Source: Proteiniphilum sp.
Lineage (GTDB): Bacteria > Bacteroidota > Bacteroidia > Bacteroidales > Dysgonomonadaceae
Reading direction: 5' to 3'
NCBI GenBank assembly: GCA_015478855.1
Contig: JADMKJ010000026.1
Span: forward strand, 1 to 33,000
Length of the DNA stretch: 33,000 nt
The notes beneath the pieces were generated by a model that saw nothing but the letters and a program-made list of their open reading frames with translations, ran no database searches and was not told the DNA's origin. The translations under genes and the position numbers were made by a program. This document shows, one piece after another, positions 6,128 through 32,999 of the stretch (within the stretch, counting starts at the first letter, position 1; each line of letters begins with the position of its first letter).

Positions 6128-7948
6128 TTAATTTTGCGGCCATCCTTCAGTCTGTTTCAGGAGATATCCTTTGCTGGCGTAATCATCCATTTGTGTTTTA
6201 CCCACCGGTGCCAGGTAAGGATTCACATTCACCTGATTGATGAAAGGCTGGCGACCTGAAGTACTGCTGCTTTTATAGAAACCGGTCATCTGAGCGTCAT
6301 TCCCTCCGTTATAGGTGATTTCATCACCATTCAGTTTGATGACAGAGAACAGGCCTGCATTAGCGGTTTTCAACTCACCTTTCAATTCCTTCGGGAAATT
6401 GACCCAACCACCGGACAGCAAATCAATGTTCGCATCTGTATCCATATATTCAAGCTTGGACCATCTCTCCAGGTCGGCATAACGGGAGCGCTCAAAAACG
6501 AATTCCATGCGTCTCTCTCTTCTTATCTCCCATAACAGCGGTGAGACATCAGCATCTCTTTCCGGATCATCGGGCAAGACCGAGAGTTGCATCGGTGCAG
6601 TTTTCTGCACACCCATAGCCACTGCCTCAGCAGCAAGAGGCCTGTTTCTTATCTTATTGATGGAGATATCAATATCGGGTTGTGTCACTGCTGCACCTCC
6701 GAGTGTGGACAGCTCAGCTTTCGCCTCGATCCAGTTGAGGAGCACCTCCGCATACCTCAACACCGGGAAATCGGTTCTGTTGTTAGTGCTTGTAAATTCT
6801 ACCGGAGGTGCGTTACCGGCCTCAACCGTTTTTGCTACGCTGCGCGGCAGGAACTTATTGATATACCAGAATGAGCCTTTGTTCCTGGGTGTTGGCTTAT
6901 CGTAGAAGGTCGCCTCCAGACGGGGATCTCTTGTTTTGATCATGTTTGCCAGCTCGAAGTTGCTGACACCTGCCAGTCCGGAGTTTTGCCAAACGTTACC
7001 ATCATTGCATATGAATGATTTAATCAGGTCGGTGGTAGCGCCGAAATTCACCGATTCCGACAAGTTGTTGTTGGATGCGATACTGTGTGTGATACCCACA
7101 GCTTCGTCATAATGTCTGTAAAGGATACAATCTTTGTTTCCACCCAGGTTCTCAGAGGTAAACAGGTCCCTGAACTCAGTTACAATGTCATAGCGTCCGC
7201 TCTCAATAATAAAGTCGGAAGCATCAATAGCAAGATTAAAGAATTTCTGCGCCCTTTCGTTATCATTGTAATAATTTTTCTGCCAGCTGCCCTCATGGAG
7301 TGCTACCCTTGATATAAATCCGGCCACTATATATTTGTTGACCTGTTGGTCTCCATCGTTGGAACGGACATTTCCGAGAGCAAAGACAAGGTCATCGTAT
7401 ACATGATCCATCACTTCATTGCGCGGGGTCCTTGGTTTGTAGAGATCATCGAGGTTGGTATCGCTCACCACGTAATCGTAATAGGGGACATCACCATATG
7501 CAGTAACAATATCTGCATATTCCAGCGCCCTGAAGAAGCGTCCCACACCCATCCAGTGATTATATGCCTCTGTACTCAGGATATCCTGCATTCTGTTTTC
7601 AACACGATCAATCATGATGTTGATAGAGCGAATCAGACTCATACTCCATACCTGACTATTTGGGACAGATCTGGTGAAATTGCCCTGGGAGCCGTTATGT
7701 ACAATATCGTCACTGAAGGTGAATCCCATCAGTGGAGTACCGGTATAATTCCATCCTGAATTATATCCCACGAAGAAATCGGTATAATATTTATTCGCGT
7801 AGAGACGTACCTTGTCCTCACTGGTCCATACTGTCTCATCATTGGCGACAGTTAAAGGTGGCCTGTCGAGAAAATCATCACATCCTGTAATGAGCAGGAA
7901 CAGGCCAATGAGCAGAAGTGTATATTGATTGTATTTCATTATATTCAT
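6128..7948 (-). CDS. SusD/RagB-family nutrient-binding outer-membrane lipoprotein
   Basis: 606 aa. The lipoprotein signal ends in FLLITGC, followed by DDFLDRPPLT, the classic SusD N-terminus (DFLDxxP). Helical TPR-like regions carry the usual motifs: VWTSEDKVRLYANKYY near residue 45, VGRFFRALEYADIVTAYGDVPYYD near 130-155, and the C-terminal RagB portion with FPVLRYAEVLLNWIEAKAEL and LLWEIRRERRMEFVFE. It ends ...TEGWPQN as SusD proteins commonly do. The protein should sit on the cell surface as the lid of the SusC transporter and bind the imported oligomer. It starts only 5 nt after the susC stop, so the two are co-translated. M4 (7939) is an alternative start. The ligand cannot be told from the sequence. 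Confidence 0.97.
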   Translation of the reverse strand: MNIMKYNQYTLLLIGLFLLITGCDDFLDRPPLTVANDETVWTSEDKVRLYANKYYTDFFVGYNSGWNYTGTPLMGFTFSDDIVHNGSQGNFTRSVPNSQVWSMSLIRSINIMIDRVENRMQDILSTEAYNHWMGVGRFFRALEYADIVTAYGDVPYYDYVVSDTNLDDLYKPRTPRNEVMDHVYDDLVFALGNVRSNDGDQQVNKYIVAGFISRVALHEGSWQKNYYNDNERAQKFFNLAIDASDFIIESGRYDIVTEFRDLFTSENLGGNKDCILYRHYDEAVGITHSIASNNNLSESVNFGATTDLIKSFICNDGNVWQNSGLAGVSNFELANMIKTRDPRLEATFYDKPTPRNKGSFWYINKFLPRSVAKTVEAGNAPPVEFTSTNNRTDFPVLRYAEVLLNWIEAKAELSTLGGAAVTQPDIDISINKIRNRPLAAEAVAMGVQKTAPMQLSVLPDDPERDADVSPLLWEIRRERRMEFVFERSRYADLERWSKLEYMDTDANIDLLSGGWVNFPKELKGELKTANAGLFSVIKLNGDEITYNGGNDAQMTGFYKSSSTSGRQPFINQVNVNPYLAPVGKTQMDDYASKGYLLKQTEGWPQN

Positions 7949-7953
7949 CTTTA

Positions 7954-10900
7954 TTATAAACTTAATTGAACACCTATGGATGCCGATTTAAAGGTCGGGT
8001 TGGATGTACCTGTACGGCCTAAGTTGTAGTTCCCTCCCGATTGTAGCATGGAGTAGCCTGAGATCGCTTCGGGATCGATTGGCAGCCCTCTCAGGTTGTC
8101 GAATGTCACGAAATTTTCCAGTGAGAGATAAATGCGTGCATTGGAGAGGTACATGTTCTTCAGTAGGTTATCTGGCAATGTATAGCCTAATGTGATATTT
8201 TTCAGTTTCAGGTATGCCATATTGAGCATGTAGCGCGTCTGTCTCCTCATCACAAATCCTTCGTTGGATCCGCTAAGGTTCCATGCCCGGGGATAGAAAG
8301 CATTTGTGCGGTCCTCTTTCCAGAAATCTGCAGCAATAGCCTGTGGCATTGCCCCGTCTTTCACGTGAAATCCCGGTATAGCCAGCTGACCGGCTCCCCA
8401 GATATTTCTCTTGCCCACACCCTGGAAGAAGAGAGAGGCATCAAAGCCTTTGAAATCAGCGCCCATACGTAATCCGAACTCATACCTGGGTGTGGAGTTA
8501 CCGATCACTACCTGGTCCCCGGGATCACCAAAGGTGTTCTTGCCCGGAGTGATGTAGCCGTCGCCATTGACATCCACGAACTTGACATCACCGGGACTGA
8601 CTAACAGTACCTGGTTGCCATCTTCGAAATAGGTCTGATAGACGGGATTGTTGCCCGCCAGCATATTTGTCACTTTGCCGGTACCCTCCCAGATAATGGT
8701 TGTCTGTTGTATTTTCCCATCATTGTCATAGACAAAGTCCTCCTTCTGATACAACCGGTCAGTTACATATCCGTAGATATCGCCATACCTCTTCCCTGTT
8801 GCATAGGTATTGCTTAACAGCCGGTTTTCATAAGGTGTATTCCAGTCGGCTCCTTTTGTGATGTGTGTGACAGCATCGGCGATATTGGCAATCATGGTAA
8901 TGCCGATACCATTTTCGAAGCGATGATTGAAATCGGCTGATATTTCCCATCCTTTCGTCTGGAGGTTGCCGTAATTTCCCTGGGGAGCTGATGCGCCATA
9001 GGTAGCAGGTAGTGATTCTCCCGGGATGATCATGTTTTTGGTATCTCTTCTGTACCATTCGACGACAAGACCCATCTTGTTATTGAAGAAGCGCAGGTCA
9101 AGACCGACATTCAACGATTCAATATCCTGCCAGCTTATTCCTGCAGAGATAGGATTGGGTGTACCTAACTGGAAAAACTGTTCACCGTTGCCCGATAGCC
9201 AGGCGTTCTTGTTGATGGCCATTGTAGCAAGATATAAAGAGTTGGGTACCGATTGGTCACCGATCAACCCCCATGATCCGCGTATCTTGGCAAAACTGAG
9301 CACCGGATCCAGTTCCTGCATAAACGATTCATTCGTTATCACCCACCCTCCGGAGAAAGAGGGATACCATCTCCAACGCAGGTGTGACGGGAACTTCGAG
9401 GTGGCATCATACCGCAGGTTTGCCTCCAACAGATATTTATCCATGAAAGAGTAGTTTATACGGCCAAAGTATCCGAGCTGGGAATCCCAGTTGGCACCAC
9501 CGCCTACTGTTTCTGTGCCGACAGCAAAATTGAACTGAGGGTTGTTATTGTCAATCAGGTCTGTCTTGTTGGACCAGTGACTATCCCATTTATAGCTCAC
9601 GATATTTGTTCCGAGCATAAATTTGAACTGATGCCTGTCCGCCAGGTTCAGATAATAGTTGGTGATGGCATTCACTGTATGCTTGTCGGAGGTAAATGAA
9701 TATTTGTAGAAATAGGTTTTATCCTGTGTCACGTAGTTCACAAAGGGGAACCTGTATGCCGGCATTCCATCGGTATCGGTAGGATTCCCATTTTCATCCA
9801 CATAAACCTGATCACCGTTTTCATCGCTCACTAGTACAGGCGTATACCAGGGTTCTCTTCCCGAGAAAGTAGGCCTGGATGAGGTCTCCTGGTTAAACTG
9901 TGTACTGTATGCATAATCGAGGTTTACATCCCAGTTGTCCGTCAGGTCGAGGGTTGTACCCAGGTTCAGATTGGTATATTTCTTCCTGTCGACAGCTGTA
10001 TGCGCATTCTTTGTATCAAAAAAGGGGTCTCTGATCTCTTCACCATTTTCGAGTACACCGGTGGGAAACAAGCGGCTCCATCGGTAGAGGTACAACCATG
10101 GGTCGGCGGTAAACCCGGTTGATGAGTTGGGGAATTTTTTCGTTGCATCTGAGAACATAGCACCGCCCCTTACAGTTAAAAACCCGGTTATCTTGGTGGA
10201 TAAATTCAGGTTTCCTGTGAACCGATCGAAGTTATCATCCTTGGCAGGTTTCATCATCCCCTCCTGGCCCAGGTAGCCAAAACTAAGGCTGTAGCTGGTC
10301 TCATTTCGTTTTCCGTTCAGTGATATATTGTGGTTCTGAGAAAAAGCTGAGTTCTTGATCATCGCTTCAACAGGATCGTACACACGATAACCATACTTAT
10401 CTGTTCCGTCATAGATCCAGTCTCTTCCGTAAACAACAGGGTCATCATAGTTGACGCTGCTGCCATATTTATCCTGCCACTCTTTGATCTTTTCGAAACT
10501 TTCATCACTGATGCGCCAGAATCCGCCGGCGGGACCGCTGGCTTTCATATTCTTGTGGGCTTCCAGCGTATATTCGAGACCGTCAACGCCGGCAATCTCA
10601 ATCTCCTTAAAAGGTTTCTGCCAGGAGAGATTGGTAGAGTAGGTGATCTCTGTCTTCTCTGTTGAGGCTCCTTTTTTAGTAGTGATAAGGATCACACCAA
10701 ATGCGGCTTTTGAACCATATATGGAGCTTGCGGCAGCGTCCTTCAGCACTGAGATCGACTCAATATCGTTGGGGTTGATCATCTGTATGCTCGGTATCTC
10801 CACGTTGTCGACCAGAATCAGGGGACTGCTGGAGCCGGCGATTGAACCTATCTGCCCTCTGATCTTCATCAGGGGGTCTGATCCCACTTCACCGCTGGGG

Positions 10901-11724
10901 ACGACGATAGAGAGGCCCGGGATGGTACCCTGCAATCCTCTGCCCACGTCTGAGATAGGCCTGCTACCCAACGTCTCTTCCACGTTCACCGTAGAGACGG
11001 CACCGGTAAGGTTCTCTTTGCGTTGAGTGCCGTAACCCACCACAACCACCTCCTGCAGGGCCTGGGTGTCTTCGGCAAGGGTGATATCGAAACTGGTTCT
11101 TCCTGTGGTGTTGATTGTTTGGCTCAGATAGCCGATGTAGGAGATCTGGATTGTGGCATCGGTGGCCACATTCAGTGTAAACCTCCCATTGAAATCGGTG
11201 ATGGTGCCATTGGAAGGTGTCCCCTGTTCAATGATATTGGCGCCTATAATGGACTGACCATTGGCATCGACTATCGTTCCGGTAATTGTTTTTTGTGTCT
11301 GTTGCACAATTTTTTCAGGCGTTGCACTTTCAGGATTACTGCTTTTGAGTGACCTCTCTTTCCTGGCGATAGTAATCTGTCTGTTGACAATGGCATAAGT
11401 CAATTCTGTTTTTTTCAACAGCCTGTCGAGCACCTCTGTGATAGACTTGTTGCGGTAGGAGAGATTCACCCTTTCAAACAAATCTCCTTCTGCCTCATCC
11501 ATGATGAGAAAAAGGTAGTCACTGTTTTTTTCTATCTGATCAAGTGCCTCTTTTAAAGTGATGTTGTTCAATTCAACCGTTACAGTCTTCGACTGTGAAT
11601 AGGAATTTTCTGCTGTCACTGAAAAAACACATAGCAAAGTAATTAAAAAATGAATTTTCATGATTTTTAAAAACTTATTGTTTTTTTTCGGGATTAGTGT
11701 TTTATAGTTATACTTTTCTTGCAT
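7954..11724 (-). CDS. SusC/RagA TonB-dependent outer-membrane transporter with N-terminal STN domain
   Basis: 1256 aa. Order of parts: N-terminal extension and signal peptide (about 1-44, ...ENSYSQ); STN (secretin/TonB N-terminal) domain about 47-120 (VELNNITLKEALDQIEK); carboxypeptidase-regulatory-like domain about 144-220 (ITGTIVDANGQSIIGANI); SusC signature LQEVVVVGYGTQ at about 223-235; plug about 240-350 (DVGRGLQGTIPGLSIV, IRGQ, LVDNVEIPSI, LKDAAASSIYGSKAA); then the beta-barrel to the C-terminus ASIGVQLSL. The STN domain is the part that contacts FecR anti-sigma factors, so this transporter should both import its ligand and signal to the neighbouring FecR/ECF pair. An internal ATG at 11661 directly before the hydrophobic signal (MKIHFLITLL) is a possible alternative start. 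The long N-terminal form is common in SusC proteins. Confidence 0.97.
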   Translation of the reverse strand: MQEKYNYKTLIPKKNNKFLKIMKIHFLITLLCVFSVTAENSYSQSKTVTVELNNITLKEALDQIEKNSDYLFLIMDEAEGDLFERVNLSYRNKSITEVLDRLLKKTELTYAIVNRQITIARKERSLKSSNPESATPEKIVQQTQKTITGTIVDANGQSIIGANIIEQGTPSNGTITDFNGRFTLNVATDATIQISYIGYLSQTINTTGRTSFDITLAEDTQALQEVVVVGYGTQRKENLTGAVSTVNVEETLGSRPISDVGRGLQGTIPGLSIVVPSGEVGSDPLMKIRGQIGSIAGSSSPLILVDNVEIPSIQMINPNDIESISVLKDAAASSIYGSKAAFGVILITTKKGASTEKTEITYSTNLSWQKPFKEIEIAGVDGLEYTLEAHKNMKASGPAGGFWRISDESFEKIKEWQDKYGSSVNYDDPVVYGRDWIYDGTDKYGYRVYDPVEAMIKNSAFSQNHNISLNGKRNETSYSLSFGYLGQEGMMKPAKDDNFDRFTGNLNLSTKITGFLTVRGGAMFSDATKKFPNSSTGFTADPWLYLYRWSRLFPTGVLENGEEIRDPFFDTKNAHTAVDRKKYTNLNLGTTLDLTDNWDVNLDYAYSTQFNQETSSRPTFSGREPWYTPVLVSDENGDQVYVDENGNPTDTDGMPAYRFPFVNYVTQDKTYFYKYSFTSDKHTVNAITNYYLNLADRHQFKFMLGTNIVSYKWDSHWSNKTDLIDNNNPQFNFAVGTETVGGGANWDSQLGYFGRINYSFMDKYLLEANLRYDATSKFPSHLRWRWYPSFSGGWVITNESFMQELDPVLSFAKIRGSWGLIGDQSVPNSLYLATMAINKNAWLSGNGEQFFQLGTPNPISAGISWQDIESLNVGLDLRFFNNKMGLVVEWYRRDTKNMIIPGESLPATYGASAPQGNYGNLQTKGWEISADFNHRFENGIGITMIANIADAVTHITKGADWNTPYENRLLSNTYATGKRYGDIYGYVTDRLYQKEDFVYDNDGKIQQTTIIWEGTGKVTNMLAGNNPVYQTYFEDGNQVLLVSPGDVKFVDVNGDGYITPGKNTFGDPGDQVVIGNSTPRYEFGLRMGADFKGFDASLFFQGVGKRNIWGAGQLAIPGFHVKDGAMPQAIAADFWKEDRTNAFYPRAWNLSGSNEGFVMRRQTRYMLNMAYLKLKNITLGYTLPDNLLKNMYLSNARIYLSLENFVTFDNLRGLPIDPEAISGYSMLQSGGNYNLGRTGTSNPTFKSASIGVQLSL

Positions 11725-11731
11725 ACCTTTG
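11701..11731 (+). promoter_or_regulatory. Putative antisense promoter at the susC 5' end
   Basis: TTTA (11701-11704), 19-nt spacer, TACCTTTG (11724-11731) on the plus strand. The -7 part is a perfect match to the Bacteroidetes TAnnTTTG consensus, and the -33 part matches 3 of 4 bases of TTTG at the ideal spacing. No plus-strand gene follows, but a plus-strand terminator does at 11777-11813. Confidence 0.5.
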
Positions 11732-11737
11732 TGTTTG

Positions 11738-11813
11738 AATTTTAATTTGTTACCAATGTAAATTATGATTCATCTTAGCCGGGTAATGTTTGCGGCATTA
11801 TTCGGCTTTTTTT
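11738..11813 (+). ncRNA. Putative DonS-like cis-antisense sRNA over the susC leader
   Basis: A transcript starting about 7 nt after the TACCTTTG box would be about 75 nt long and end in a strong terminator. Stem arms AGCCGGGTAATG (11777-11788) and CATTATTCGGCT (11796-11807) pair over 12 bp and are followed by a run of seven T (11807-11813). Two of the pairs are G-T, which are G-U in plus-strand RNA but A-C mismatches in minus-strand RNA, so the hairpin is built for plus-strand transcription. The RNA would be complementary to the susC mRNA leader between fecR and susC. From memory, Bacteroides PULs with ECF/FecR regulators carry cis-antisense repressor RNAs such as DonS in this position. The 5' end is inferred. 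Confidence 0.55.
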
Positions 11814-11872
11814 ATCCGCAGTTTTTTCACTTCATAGGCAATTTGTTTAGGTTTGAAATAATAAATGAGTAA

Positions 11873-13027
11873 TTATTGTTTGATATTGATCGTCTCCTTG
11901 TTTATCTCATAAGTAAGGAAGGTCAGTTTAGAAAAAGCTTTCAGCACATCCTCAAGGTTGTCGGAAAGATACAGTTTTCCTGAACAGGTTCTCTCCCCCA
12001 GGCTCAGGTTGTGAGGATAGCGGAACTCCACATTGTAGTAACGACCTATCTGTTGGAGTACTTCGTTCAGAGGTGTCTTGCTTAATTGAAGATATCCTTT
12101 TTTCCAGCTTATATATGCTGATACATCCACCTCCTTGCGCATCAGGGCACCATTTTCAATCACTGCCATCTCGTTGGGCTTAAGCCGGATAGAGCTGTTC
12201 ATGCTCTTTACCTCTACCGAGCCATTAACCAGCACGACCGACTCCCTGCTCTCATCAGAATAGGAGGTGACATTGAAAGAGGTACCGTAAACGATGATCT
12301 CAGAATTGGGTGTATGAATCACGAAGGGAGTACCACGCTGATGTGCCACATCAATAAAAATCTCTCCTTCCACCCATATCTCTCTGGAATGGTTGGAGAA
12401 GGTTGATGGAAAATCCATCTCTGTGCCGGAGTTGAGATACACTTTAGATCCATCGGCTAATACGATGGAGCTTCTTTTACCGAAGGGAACGATAAGTCTG
12501 TTGGTTTGATTTCGGTCAAGCGTAACCTCTTTCTGTGAAAGTGAGTCCTGAATCACCGCACTGTTTTTCTTCTCAGACAAATCGAGCGTTGCGTTGTTGT
12601 TGATGTCGGTGACATTGCCACCAGCCAGAAGCTGTACCGTAGAATCGTTCATCACCTGACCGATGGATGCAAACGATAGCTCCGGGTTTTCAGTTTTTCT
12701 GCCGATGAAGAAAAGCGTAGTGATCACTGCCAGTAACAACACCGCAGCCGACAGGGAGGTGTAGAATGTGCGCAATTTATTCCGCTTGCTCACTTGAATG
12801 CGATGATCAATTAGTTTCTTTAAGGCTACCTCGTTGAGCAGGTAAGCATCATTGACCACTTTAAGGTTATCAAACTCTGCAACAGCCCTATAGAACTCAT
12901 CTCTTTGTTCTTCATTCGCACGGAGATACGCTTCCCAGTAAAGGTCCAATTTCTCCGATGGGTGAGTTCTCCAGTAAATGAATAAGTCGTCACACAAAAA
13001 ATCCTTATGATTGATAATCTGTTTCAT
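11873..13027 (-). CDS. FecR-family anti-sigma factor
   Basis: 384 aa. The N-terminal cytoplasmic region (1-80, LFIYWRTHPSEKLDLYWEAY) should hold the ECF sigma factor. A single membrane segment spans about 84-107 (TSLSAAVLLLAVITTLFFIG). The periplasmic FecR domain is at about 180-275 (IVLADGSKVYLNSGTEMDFP, VEGEIFIDVAHQRGTPFVIH, YGTSFNVTSY, VVLVNGSVEV), followed by a DUF4974-type domain at about 315-382 (LNEVLQQIGRYYNVEFRY). This is the standard trans-envelope relay: SusC STN domain to FecR to sigma factor. It is 74 nt downstream of the sigma gene and 148 nt upstream of susC, with the putative antisense RNA in that second gap. Confidence 0.95.
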   Translation of the reverse strand: MKQIINHKDFLCDDLFIYWRTHPSEKLDLYWEAYLRANEEQRDEFYRAVAEFDNLKVVNDAYLLNEVALKKLIDHRIQVSKRNKLRTFYTSLSAAVLLLAVITTLFFIGRKTENPELSFASIGQVMNDSTVQLLAGGNVTDINNNATLDLSEKKNSAVIQDSLSQKEVTLDRNQTNRLIVPFGKRSSIVLADGSKVYLNSGTEMDFPSTFSNHSREIWVEGEIFIDVAHQRGTPFVIHTPNSEIIVYGTSFNVTSYSDESRESVVLVNGSVEVKSMNSSIRLKPNEMAVIENGALMRKEVDVSAYISWKKGYLQLSKTPLNEVLQQIGRYYNVEFRYPHNLSLGERTCSGKLYLSDNLEDVLKAFSKLTFLTYEINKETINIKQ

Positions 13028-13101: not shown

Positions 13102-13659
13102 TTATATTGAGCTATCCTGTCTTGAGAAGAGTGATGATTTTTCCTTCATTTTTTTAAGTGCTCTATAGATCGATTTTTTCACAGCTGCGGGAGAGAGGTC
13201 TAGAAGTTCGCCTATTTCTTTGCTACTAAGGTTAAGCTGATAGTGGTATTGAATAATTTTTCTCTGTTTGGGTGGCAATGATTTCAGTAGATGAATTAAT
13301 TGTTTTTTTATCTGTATCTCTCTCTCTTCCTTAATCATTCGCTCAATAATACTGCTTTCATTTTCTGTGATAATATCATGGAAGTTGATTTCTGTTATTT
13401 TATTCTCACTCTTGTATATATCGAAAAGTCTGTTTTTCAGGCAATGAAGCAGGTAAAATTCGATATTTTGAATATGGTACAACTGACTCTTCGAGACATA
13501 AATCTTGAAGAAAACATCCTGAATGGCATCTTTGCATGTCTCTTCATCAAAACCAATTTTCAGTGCATAAGCAAAAAGTTCATTAAAATAGGCGTGATAA
13601 ACTTCCGAAAAAGAGTTTTCGTCACCCTCCAGAAATTTTAGCCATGCCTCTTTACTCAT
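13102..13659 (-). CDS. ECF-type RNA polymerase sigma factor (Bacteroidetes, FecR-linked)
   Basis: 185 aa. Region 2 is at about 20-90 (FNELFAYALKIGFDEETCKDAIQ and VFFKIYVSK, typical of Bacteroidetes ECF factors) and region 4 at about 118-172 (LPPKQRKIIQYHYQLNLSSK, EIGELLDLSPAAVKKSIYRA, a helix-turn-helix). The start ATG at 13659 gives MSKEAWLKFLEGDENSF, a usual N-terminus. It should direct transcription of the susCD operon when FecR releases it. It begins only 9 nt after the folA stop, so it may be co-transcribed with thyA-folA, which would give a housekeeping basal supply of the sigma factor. No separate promoter is obvious, although one could lie inside folA. Confidence 0.94.
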   Translation of the reverse strand: MSKEAWLKFLEGDENSFSEVYHAYFNELFAYALKIGFDEETCKDAIQDVFFKIYVSKSQLYHIQNIEFYLLHCLKNRLFDIYKSENKITEINFHDIITENESSIIERMIKEEREIQIKKQLIHLLKSLPPKQRKIIQYHYQLNLSSKEIGELLDLSPAAVKKSIYRALKKMKEKSSLFSRQDSSI

Positions 13660-32925: not shown

Positions 32926-32999
32926 TCTTCAGTAGCTCAGTCGGTTAGAGCATCTGACTGTTAATCAGAGGGTCGTTGGTTCGAGTCCAACCTGAAGAG
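32926..32999 (+). tRNA. tRNA-Asn (GTT)
   Basis: A complete cloverleaf: acceptor TCTTCAG / CTGAAGA, D-arm GCTC...GAGC, anticodon stem TCTGA / TCAGA with loop CTGTTAA (anticodon GTT at 32960-32962), T-arm GTTGG-TTCGAGT-CCAAC, discriminator G at 32999. Whether the CCA end is encoded cannot be seen, because only one further C is in the window. Confidence 0.97.

Follow-up and report, generated by a model that had tools for sequence, protein, structure and literature searches.

Our analyses have identified a putative small RNA gene on the plus strand opposite the leader of a susC gene of Proteiniphilum sp., and it is very likely, on the evidence of the sequence and its counterparts in related genomes, that an RNA gene lies at this position. 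Its product is probably a cis-antisense RNA of ~76 nt, which is transcribed by the housekeeping sigma factor from a promoter box situated on the susC start, ends at its own terminator and represses susC by pairing with the leader of its mRNA. The promoter box, the hairpin, the strand preference of the hairpin, the conservation of these elements and their adjacency to FecR genes can be read directly in the window (the whole stretch of 33,000 nucleotides that was analysed) and in its relatives. An antisense RNA had been proposed in an initial annotation made from the letters of the window, and this reading is now supported by the recurrence of promoter box, hairpin and T run opposite susC-type genes in many Bacteroidales.

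Organization of the locus and the predicted antisense RNA

The genes of the locus are arranged on the minus strand in the order thyA, folA, ECF sigma factor, FecR, SusC, SusD, DUF4623 protein and GHL10-family hydrolase, and the positions of the features that are important for this work are summarized in Table 1. The nearest named relatives of the SusC protein are from Proteiniphilum sp. (viz. L044, 87% over residues 1-1256, and L045, 97% over residues 232-1256). The sequence places the start of susC most likely at 11724 rather than at 11660, because the leader-matched relatives described below retain both the sequence complementary to TTGCATAYCTTT and a frame that is open into the signal peptide. 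An annotation of susC from 11660 would lose 21 N-terminal residues that are open in the relatives. With the start at 11724, the antisense box and the start codon would overlap by one base pair, in which the A of the susC ATG stands opposite the first T of TACCTTTG (CAT on the plus strand). A comparison of the whole window with Rfam yielded the tRNA gene as the sole match at gathering scores, and the best match within 11600-11900 was weak (E 0.07) and under its gathering score.

Table 1. Positions of the genes and of the observed and predicted regulatory features in the window.
Feature	Position	Strand	Remarks
susD (SusD_RagB)	6128..7948	-	
susC	7954..11724	-	1256 aa; STN, carboxypeptidase-regulatory, plug and TonB-dependent receptor domains
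susC N-terminus	likely start 11724	-	MQEKYNYK...KFLKIMKIHFL
TTTA, -33-like element, N19 before TACCTTTG	11701..11704	+	weak; within susC codons
TACCTTTG, sigma-ABfr -7 type box (TAnnTTTG) of predicted antisense RNA	11724..11731	+	sequence match
Predicted cis-antisense RNA, ~76 nt	11738..11813	+	5' end inferred from box
Intrinsic terminator hairpin, stem AGCCGGGTAATG/CATTATTCGGCT, 12 bp	11777..11807	+	finder, shuffles, covariation
T run of antisense terminator	11807-11813	+	
Upstream ORF ATG AAG TGA (M-K-stop), susC sense leader	11827..11835	-	start within GCCTATG 11833-11839
FecR-type anti-sigma factor	11873..13027	-	
ECF-type sigma factor (Sigma70_r4_2)	13102..13659	-	
tRNA gene	32926-32999	+	Rfam match at gathering score

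The plus-strand arrangement of TTTA-N19-TACCTTTG, followed 45 nt later by a 12-bp stem and a T run, is present as the initial annotation had described it, and so are the two G-U pairs which it had noted to become A-C in the minus-strand RNA; the hairpin has a predicted energy of -16.6 kcal/mol on the plus strand versus -9.6 kcal/mol on the minus strand. When the gap was dinucleotide-shuffled 500 times, a terminator of -12 kcal/mol or better was obtained only once. The 78-nt stretch as a whole beats its shuffles on either strand (z -2.59 plus, -2.17 minus), and hence the strand is argued from the T run and from the comparison with other loci and not from the fold alone. The RNA predicted from these elements would be the complement of the part of the susC leader that lies between ~14 and 89 nt ahead of the start codon, and its position is antisense to the 5' end of the susC homologue of a PUL. 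The assignment of TACCTTTG to the housekeeping-type (sigma-ABfr) promoters of the form TAnnTTTG is suggested by its sequence match and its fixed position. TTTA provides weak evidence, since no -33 element is clearly conserved across 45 distinct comparable sites.

Survey of the gaps downstream of FecR genes

The survey was based upon matches to the FecR_C domain (PF16344) at the levels of genus, order and phylum, chosen without regard to the motif, and it consists of the best FecR_C matches listed and not of a random sample, with the first long ORF being taken as the downstream gene. Before counting, 2 of the 73 loci from the genus, 3 of the 29 and 2 of the 40 from the order and 1 of the 29 from the phylum were removed, which left 71 usable gaps from the genus, 26 and 38 from the order and 28 from the phylum outside the order; three duplicates (L094, L105 and L113) and two loci picked by leader match (L132 and L133) were left uncounted. 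The resulting Bacteroidales set comprises 135 gaps from 55 genomes. The next ORF was SusC-like (match to the SusC of the window with E below 1e-3) in 120 of the 135 gaps, and in 23 of the 28 gaps outside the order.

Strict terminators were found on the antisense strand in 60 of the 135 Bacteroidales gaps (75 having none there) and on the sense strand in 2, and the 120 gaps with a SusC-like next ORF hold 58 of the former, both of the latter and 45 boxes on the start codon. With a lax caller, the numbers of antisense and sense terminators were 48 and 20 of 71 in the genus, and 12 and 4 of 26 in the order. The 28 gaps outside the order contain 5 strict antisense and no sense terminators, 3 boxes and 1 CATAGG. 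One surveyed locus (L156 from 1919) has a SusC-like ORF (E 1.4e-43) that stops after 304 residues, and the antisense layout ahead of it is intact.

The strand on which these hairpins function was examined in 68 distinct hairpins, whose stems were set by Watson-Crick pairs only to avoid bias. When read on the antisense strand, their mismatches comprise 53 G-U, 5 A-C and 18 others. As a G-U pair on one strand is an A-C mismatch on the other, this ratio indicates that selection has acted on the antisense-strand RNA. A G-U-tolerant caller, which is itself biased, found the antisense strand stronger in 51 of 58 hairpins and the reverse in 6. These observations bear upon an alternative in which the hairpin would terminate or attenuate the sense transcript of fecR/susC. 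The hairpin does sit in the fecR-susC gap and the weaker minus-strand form could fold; however, its sense side is without a T run in the window, and the 2 sense versus 60 antisense terminators and the 53 to 5 ratio of G-U to A-C speak against such a role. We have rejected this alternative, which is extremely improbable, on the basis of this strand asymmetry.

Of the 135 Bacteroidales gaps, 46 have the promoter box TAnnTTTG overlapping the start codon of the next ORF, whereas its frequency in the remainder of the gaps would predict 0.11. By itself CATAnnTTTG is not rare, as the window contains 4 matches versus 1.4 expected and 6 of 100 shuffles reach 4. With the strict caller, an antisense hairpin accompanies the box in 32 of the 46 gaps that have it versus 28 of the 89 that do not (p=4.5e-5; this and the other p-value of the survey are too small, since the surveyed loci are related and not independent). 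An alternative explanation is that CATAnnTTTG is kept for the translation of susC, as a CAAAnnTATG start context, and is not a promoter. The box does overlap the start codon, and conservation alone cannot separate the constraints of the sense strand; such a role could also coexist with an antisense one. However, the box tracks the antisense hairpin with the lax caller in both genus and order: in the genus the hairpin is present in 22 of 23 gaps with the box versus 26 of 48 without it, and the box is found in 22 of 48 (genus) and 7 of 12 (order) gaps with a hairpin versus 1 of 23 and 0 of 14 gaps without one. In addition, the box occurs on only 4 of 303 complete ORF starts, and all four are SusC-like. 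In view of this association with the hairpin and of the other ORF starts, the start-context explanation is disfavoured and highly improbable.

Conservation of the leader in close relatives

A DNA search with 11640-11900 as the query matched 32 of 61 genomes, and the strong matches were in the same genus. Among the 17 leader-matched loci (L015-L031), the hairpin and the exact TAYCTTTG were each kept in 16; the finder reports no terminator in L024, and the box of L028 reads CTTTA, its last G being lost. Two more distant leader matches (L033 and L034) have CTTTT for the box and no terminator by the finder. These four loci, with either a damaged box or no hairpin, constitute natural comparisons for expression. 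In the alignment of 16 hairpins (15 distinct), standard pairs occupy 98.3% of the cells and 5 of the 12 pairs have changed on both sides. The covariation score of this alignment was 0.325, which was equalled by 0 of 500 shuffles.

A repeat of ~70 nt (GTAGATTTTGC...GCAAAATTCAC) is inserted in the antisense RNA region, ahead of the hairpin and after the leader match, of six of these loci (L016, L020, L021, L026, L029 and L030), with two tandem copies in L020, L021 and L030, and the terminator is retained past the insertion. Similar copies are present in at least 24 of 39 genomes of the genus, with at least 23 in one genome, and none was found within the window.

Distribution among other susC genes

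In the genome from which the window derives, the box, the hairpin and GCCTATG (a sense-leader motif considered below) occur together in 4 of 9 FecR gaps, and the sequences differ. We have also examined named loci from a plasmid collection, in which 11 loci were fetched from the best 20 of 164 SusC matches listed. The box lies on the start codon in 4 of the 11 (viz. L233 of Phocaeicola massiliensis, L234 of Bacteroides finegoldii, and L235 and L238 of Parabacteroides distasonis); the hairpin of L233 was missed by the caller and recognised by eye. Five of the fetched loci have a strict antisense terminator (L234, L235, L237, L238 and L241) and three have frames from GCCTATG (5 codons in L235, 1 in L238 and 2 in L241). 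A FecR gene is annotated upstream in L234, L235, L238 and L241, and the Phocaeicola records are unannotated over the stretch. None of the three elements was found in L232, L240 and L242. In L239, FecR is on the opposite strand and the upstream reading yielded no ATG. At L236, a susC of B. fragilis whose fetched stretch contains no FecR, there is a single sense terminator, and both the box and an antisense terminator are missing.

As a control, 20 loci were selected by SusC similarity and read upstream. Three of these are of the query's own kind (L044, L048 and L062) and two are uninformative (L044, where a wrong upstream ATG was read, and L059, which has no ATG). The remaining 16 are mostly from Sphingobacterium and Pedobacter, and in 15 of them the alignment with the query begins no earlier than residue 120-144. 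No box on the start codon was found in these 16 loci. Antisense terminators are present in 2, of which that in L050 is weak and that in L064 (-18.4) belongs to a locus that aligns from residue 1, and a sense terminator lies within 500 nt in 7.

Minimal upstream ORF of the susC sense leader

Beyond the antisense hairpin, the complement of the susC leader carries CATAGGC, which lies 18-42 nt past the hairpin in all 39 gaps that have both elements. Read on the sense strand as GCCTATG, this motif begins a frame that has no more than 9 codons at 43 of 45 survey sites (26/26 distinct sites in the genus and 17/19 in the order), versus 16/26 and 13/26 (genus) and 8/19 and 7/19 (order) for the shifted-frame controls. 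Against shuffled downstream sequence, the corresponding count for the genus and the first order set is 31 of 33 sites versus 13.9 +/- 2.8, and 0 of 2000 shuffles reached as high. The query's own ortholog group is weaker, with at most 9 codons in 11 of 16 loci, and CATAGGC is absent within 480 nt from 4 of 20 loci of this group. The stop of the upstream ORF precedes the complement of the hairpin in 36 of the 39 gaps, versus 24/39 and 16/39 for the shifted frames. GCCTATG is also associated with the strict antisense terminator, being present in 39 of 60 gaps with one versus 7 of 75 without (p=6e-12, again too small for loci that are related). As the window holds 5 matches to CATAGGC versus 3.1 expected, so that the motif itself is not rare, the evidence consists of its position and frame and not of its presence; likewise, GCCTATG was anchored post hoc, so that the conservation of its seven bases is no test, and the frame is. 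The codons between start and stop vary, and hence the sequence of the peptide is not kept.

GGAGG or AGGAG occurs just upstream of GCCTATG in 6 of 46 sites; a Shine-Dalgarno-like GGAGG lies ~7-8 nt before the upstream ORF start in L069, L076, L081, L085, L090 and L110, which is unusual for a phylum said to lack such sequences (PMC7366714). The possibility that GCCTATG is an element of the sense promoter was considered and is disfavoured by the frame-specific stop that follows it, and also by its likeness across paralogues with presumably different sigma factors.

We tentatively suggest that a conserved minimal upstream ORF (GCCTATG, usually 1-9 codons) on the susC mRNAs of ECF/FecR-controlled Bacteroidales loci may act together with the antisense RNA. 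According to this suggestion, ribosomes would start and stop translation a short distance upstream of the segment that the antisense RNA covers and would afterwards slide to susC or reinitiate there, a passage which the duplex with the antisense RNA would block; the acts of starting and stopping would count and the sequence of the peptide would be irrelevant. A description of an upstream ORF in a susC leader was not found in the literature, of which the coverage was partial, and this constitutes weak evidence of absence. In B. theta PUL24, the sigma-dependent sense 5' end is reported 291 nt upstream of susC, within the anti-sigma gene (PMC11501099), and a leader of such a kind could hold an upstream ORF. 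The mRNAs of the phylum are described as being without Shine-Dalgarno sequences (PMC7366714), and a coupled upstream ORF would offer a testable route to the control of susC translation without them.

Proposed mechanism of action

We infer that the housekeeping sigma factor would transcribe the antisense RNA from the TAnnTTTG box up to its own hairpin. When no glycan is present, the RNA would pair with leaky susC mRNA, block the entry of ribosomes and favour the decay of the duplex; glycan import would free the ECF sigma factor from FecR, and the sense transcripts would then exceed the antisense RNA. A translational block is the simplest reading, since the pairing of FopS beside the susC start blocks translation in vitro (PMC11697453). 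Repression is not assured, as a later tally of 32 PUL-associated antisense RNAs reports both anti-correlated and positively correlated pairs with susC (PMC10994844).

The position of the terminator before GCCTATG in all 39 gaps implies that an antisense polymerase would be halted short of the upstream leader, which favours RNA pairing over a collision at the sense promoter. It is quite improbable that antisense transcription and not the RNA restrains susC by polymerase collision; opposed transcription over a short leader is what such interference would involve, but the antisense unit is predicted to end within ~76 nt, which leaves little room for collision. The same geometry is exactly what is needed for an insulator, in which the sole role of the hairpin is to keep antisense transcription from reaching fecR and the sense promoter, with no function for the short RNA, and some antisense RNA candidates are possibly non-functional, as PMC7366714 cautions. 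However, loss of the box would be expected if antisense transcription were to be avoided, but it persists on the start codon in about a third of the Bacteroidales gaps, and within the query group the leader sequence from box to hairpin is conserved, though a sense function could explain the latter; we consider the insulator explanation unlikely. For the preferred reading, that of a repressing antisense RNA, pairing with the leader RNA is the mode of action predicted by the fixed geometry, with the box on the start codon and the terminator ahead of GCCTATG.

Relationship to known systems

The predicted RNA belongs with the known PUL-associated (DonS-like) cis-antisense RNAs, to which it is likened by its layout. 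DonS represents antisense RNAs of 78-128 nt opposite susC homologues, and B. theta has ten further DonS-like antisense RNAs, five of which were confirmed by Northern blots (PMC7366714). The length predicted here is 76 nt with the start inferred from the box, and when the box-to-terminator rule is applied to 32 comparable loci, the lengths range over 69-204 nt, with a median of 85.5. Both kinds of RNA are short, lie opposite the 5' end of susC in a PUL and have a promoter of the TAnnTTTG type, which is found at 52% of cis-antisense candidates (PMC7366714); the intrinsic terminator on the antisense strand is a feature adopted in the present analysis and not taken from the DonS paper. The systems differ in the host, which is Proteiniphilum-like here and not Bacteroides, and in the minimal upstream ORF of the sense leader, which is unmentioned in the portions of PMC7366714 and PMC10994844 that were covered. 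The available parts of the literature contain nothing that confines known DonS-type RNAs to ECF-controlled PULs, and the portions of PMC12596196 that were covered make no mention of such RNAs, the word 'antisense' being absent from its main text. The present results would extend PUL-associated antisense RNAs past cultured gut Bacteroides, with the layout being found in many Bacteroidales families, and as this layout is readable from sequence, it allows candidates to be identified in genomes that have no RNA-seq data.

The FopS/GibS sRNAs of B. thetaiotaomicron are also small RNAs that act on PUL mRNAs, and FopS, which has sigma-ABfr promoters of the canonical type, binds to susC-type mRNAs in their 5' region (PMC11697453). 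In contrast to these RNAs, which act in trans via shared seeds, the predicted RNA is encoded in cis, and its four copies in its own genome differ by eye, unlike trans paralogues of shared sequence. Lastly, the locus resembles the ECF sigma/FecR-controlled PULs in having an ECF sigma factor, FecR, an STN-containing SusC and SusD in order, and the ECF/FecR switch is the induction route established for such PULs (PMC11501099); it differs from them in the predicted antisense RNA, which would add a further layer of control.
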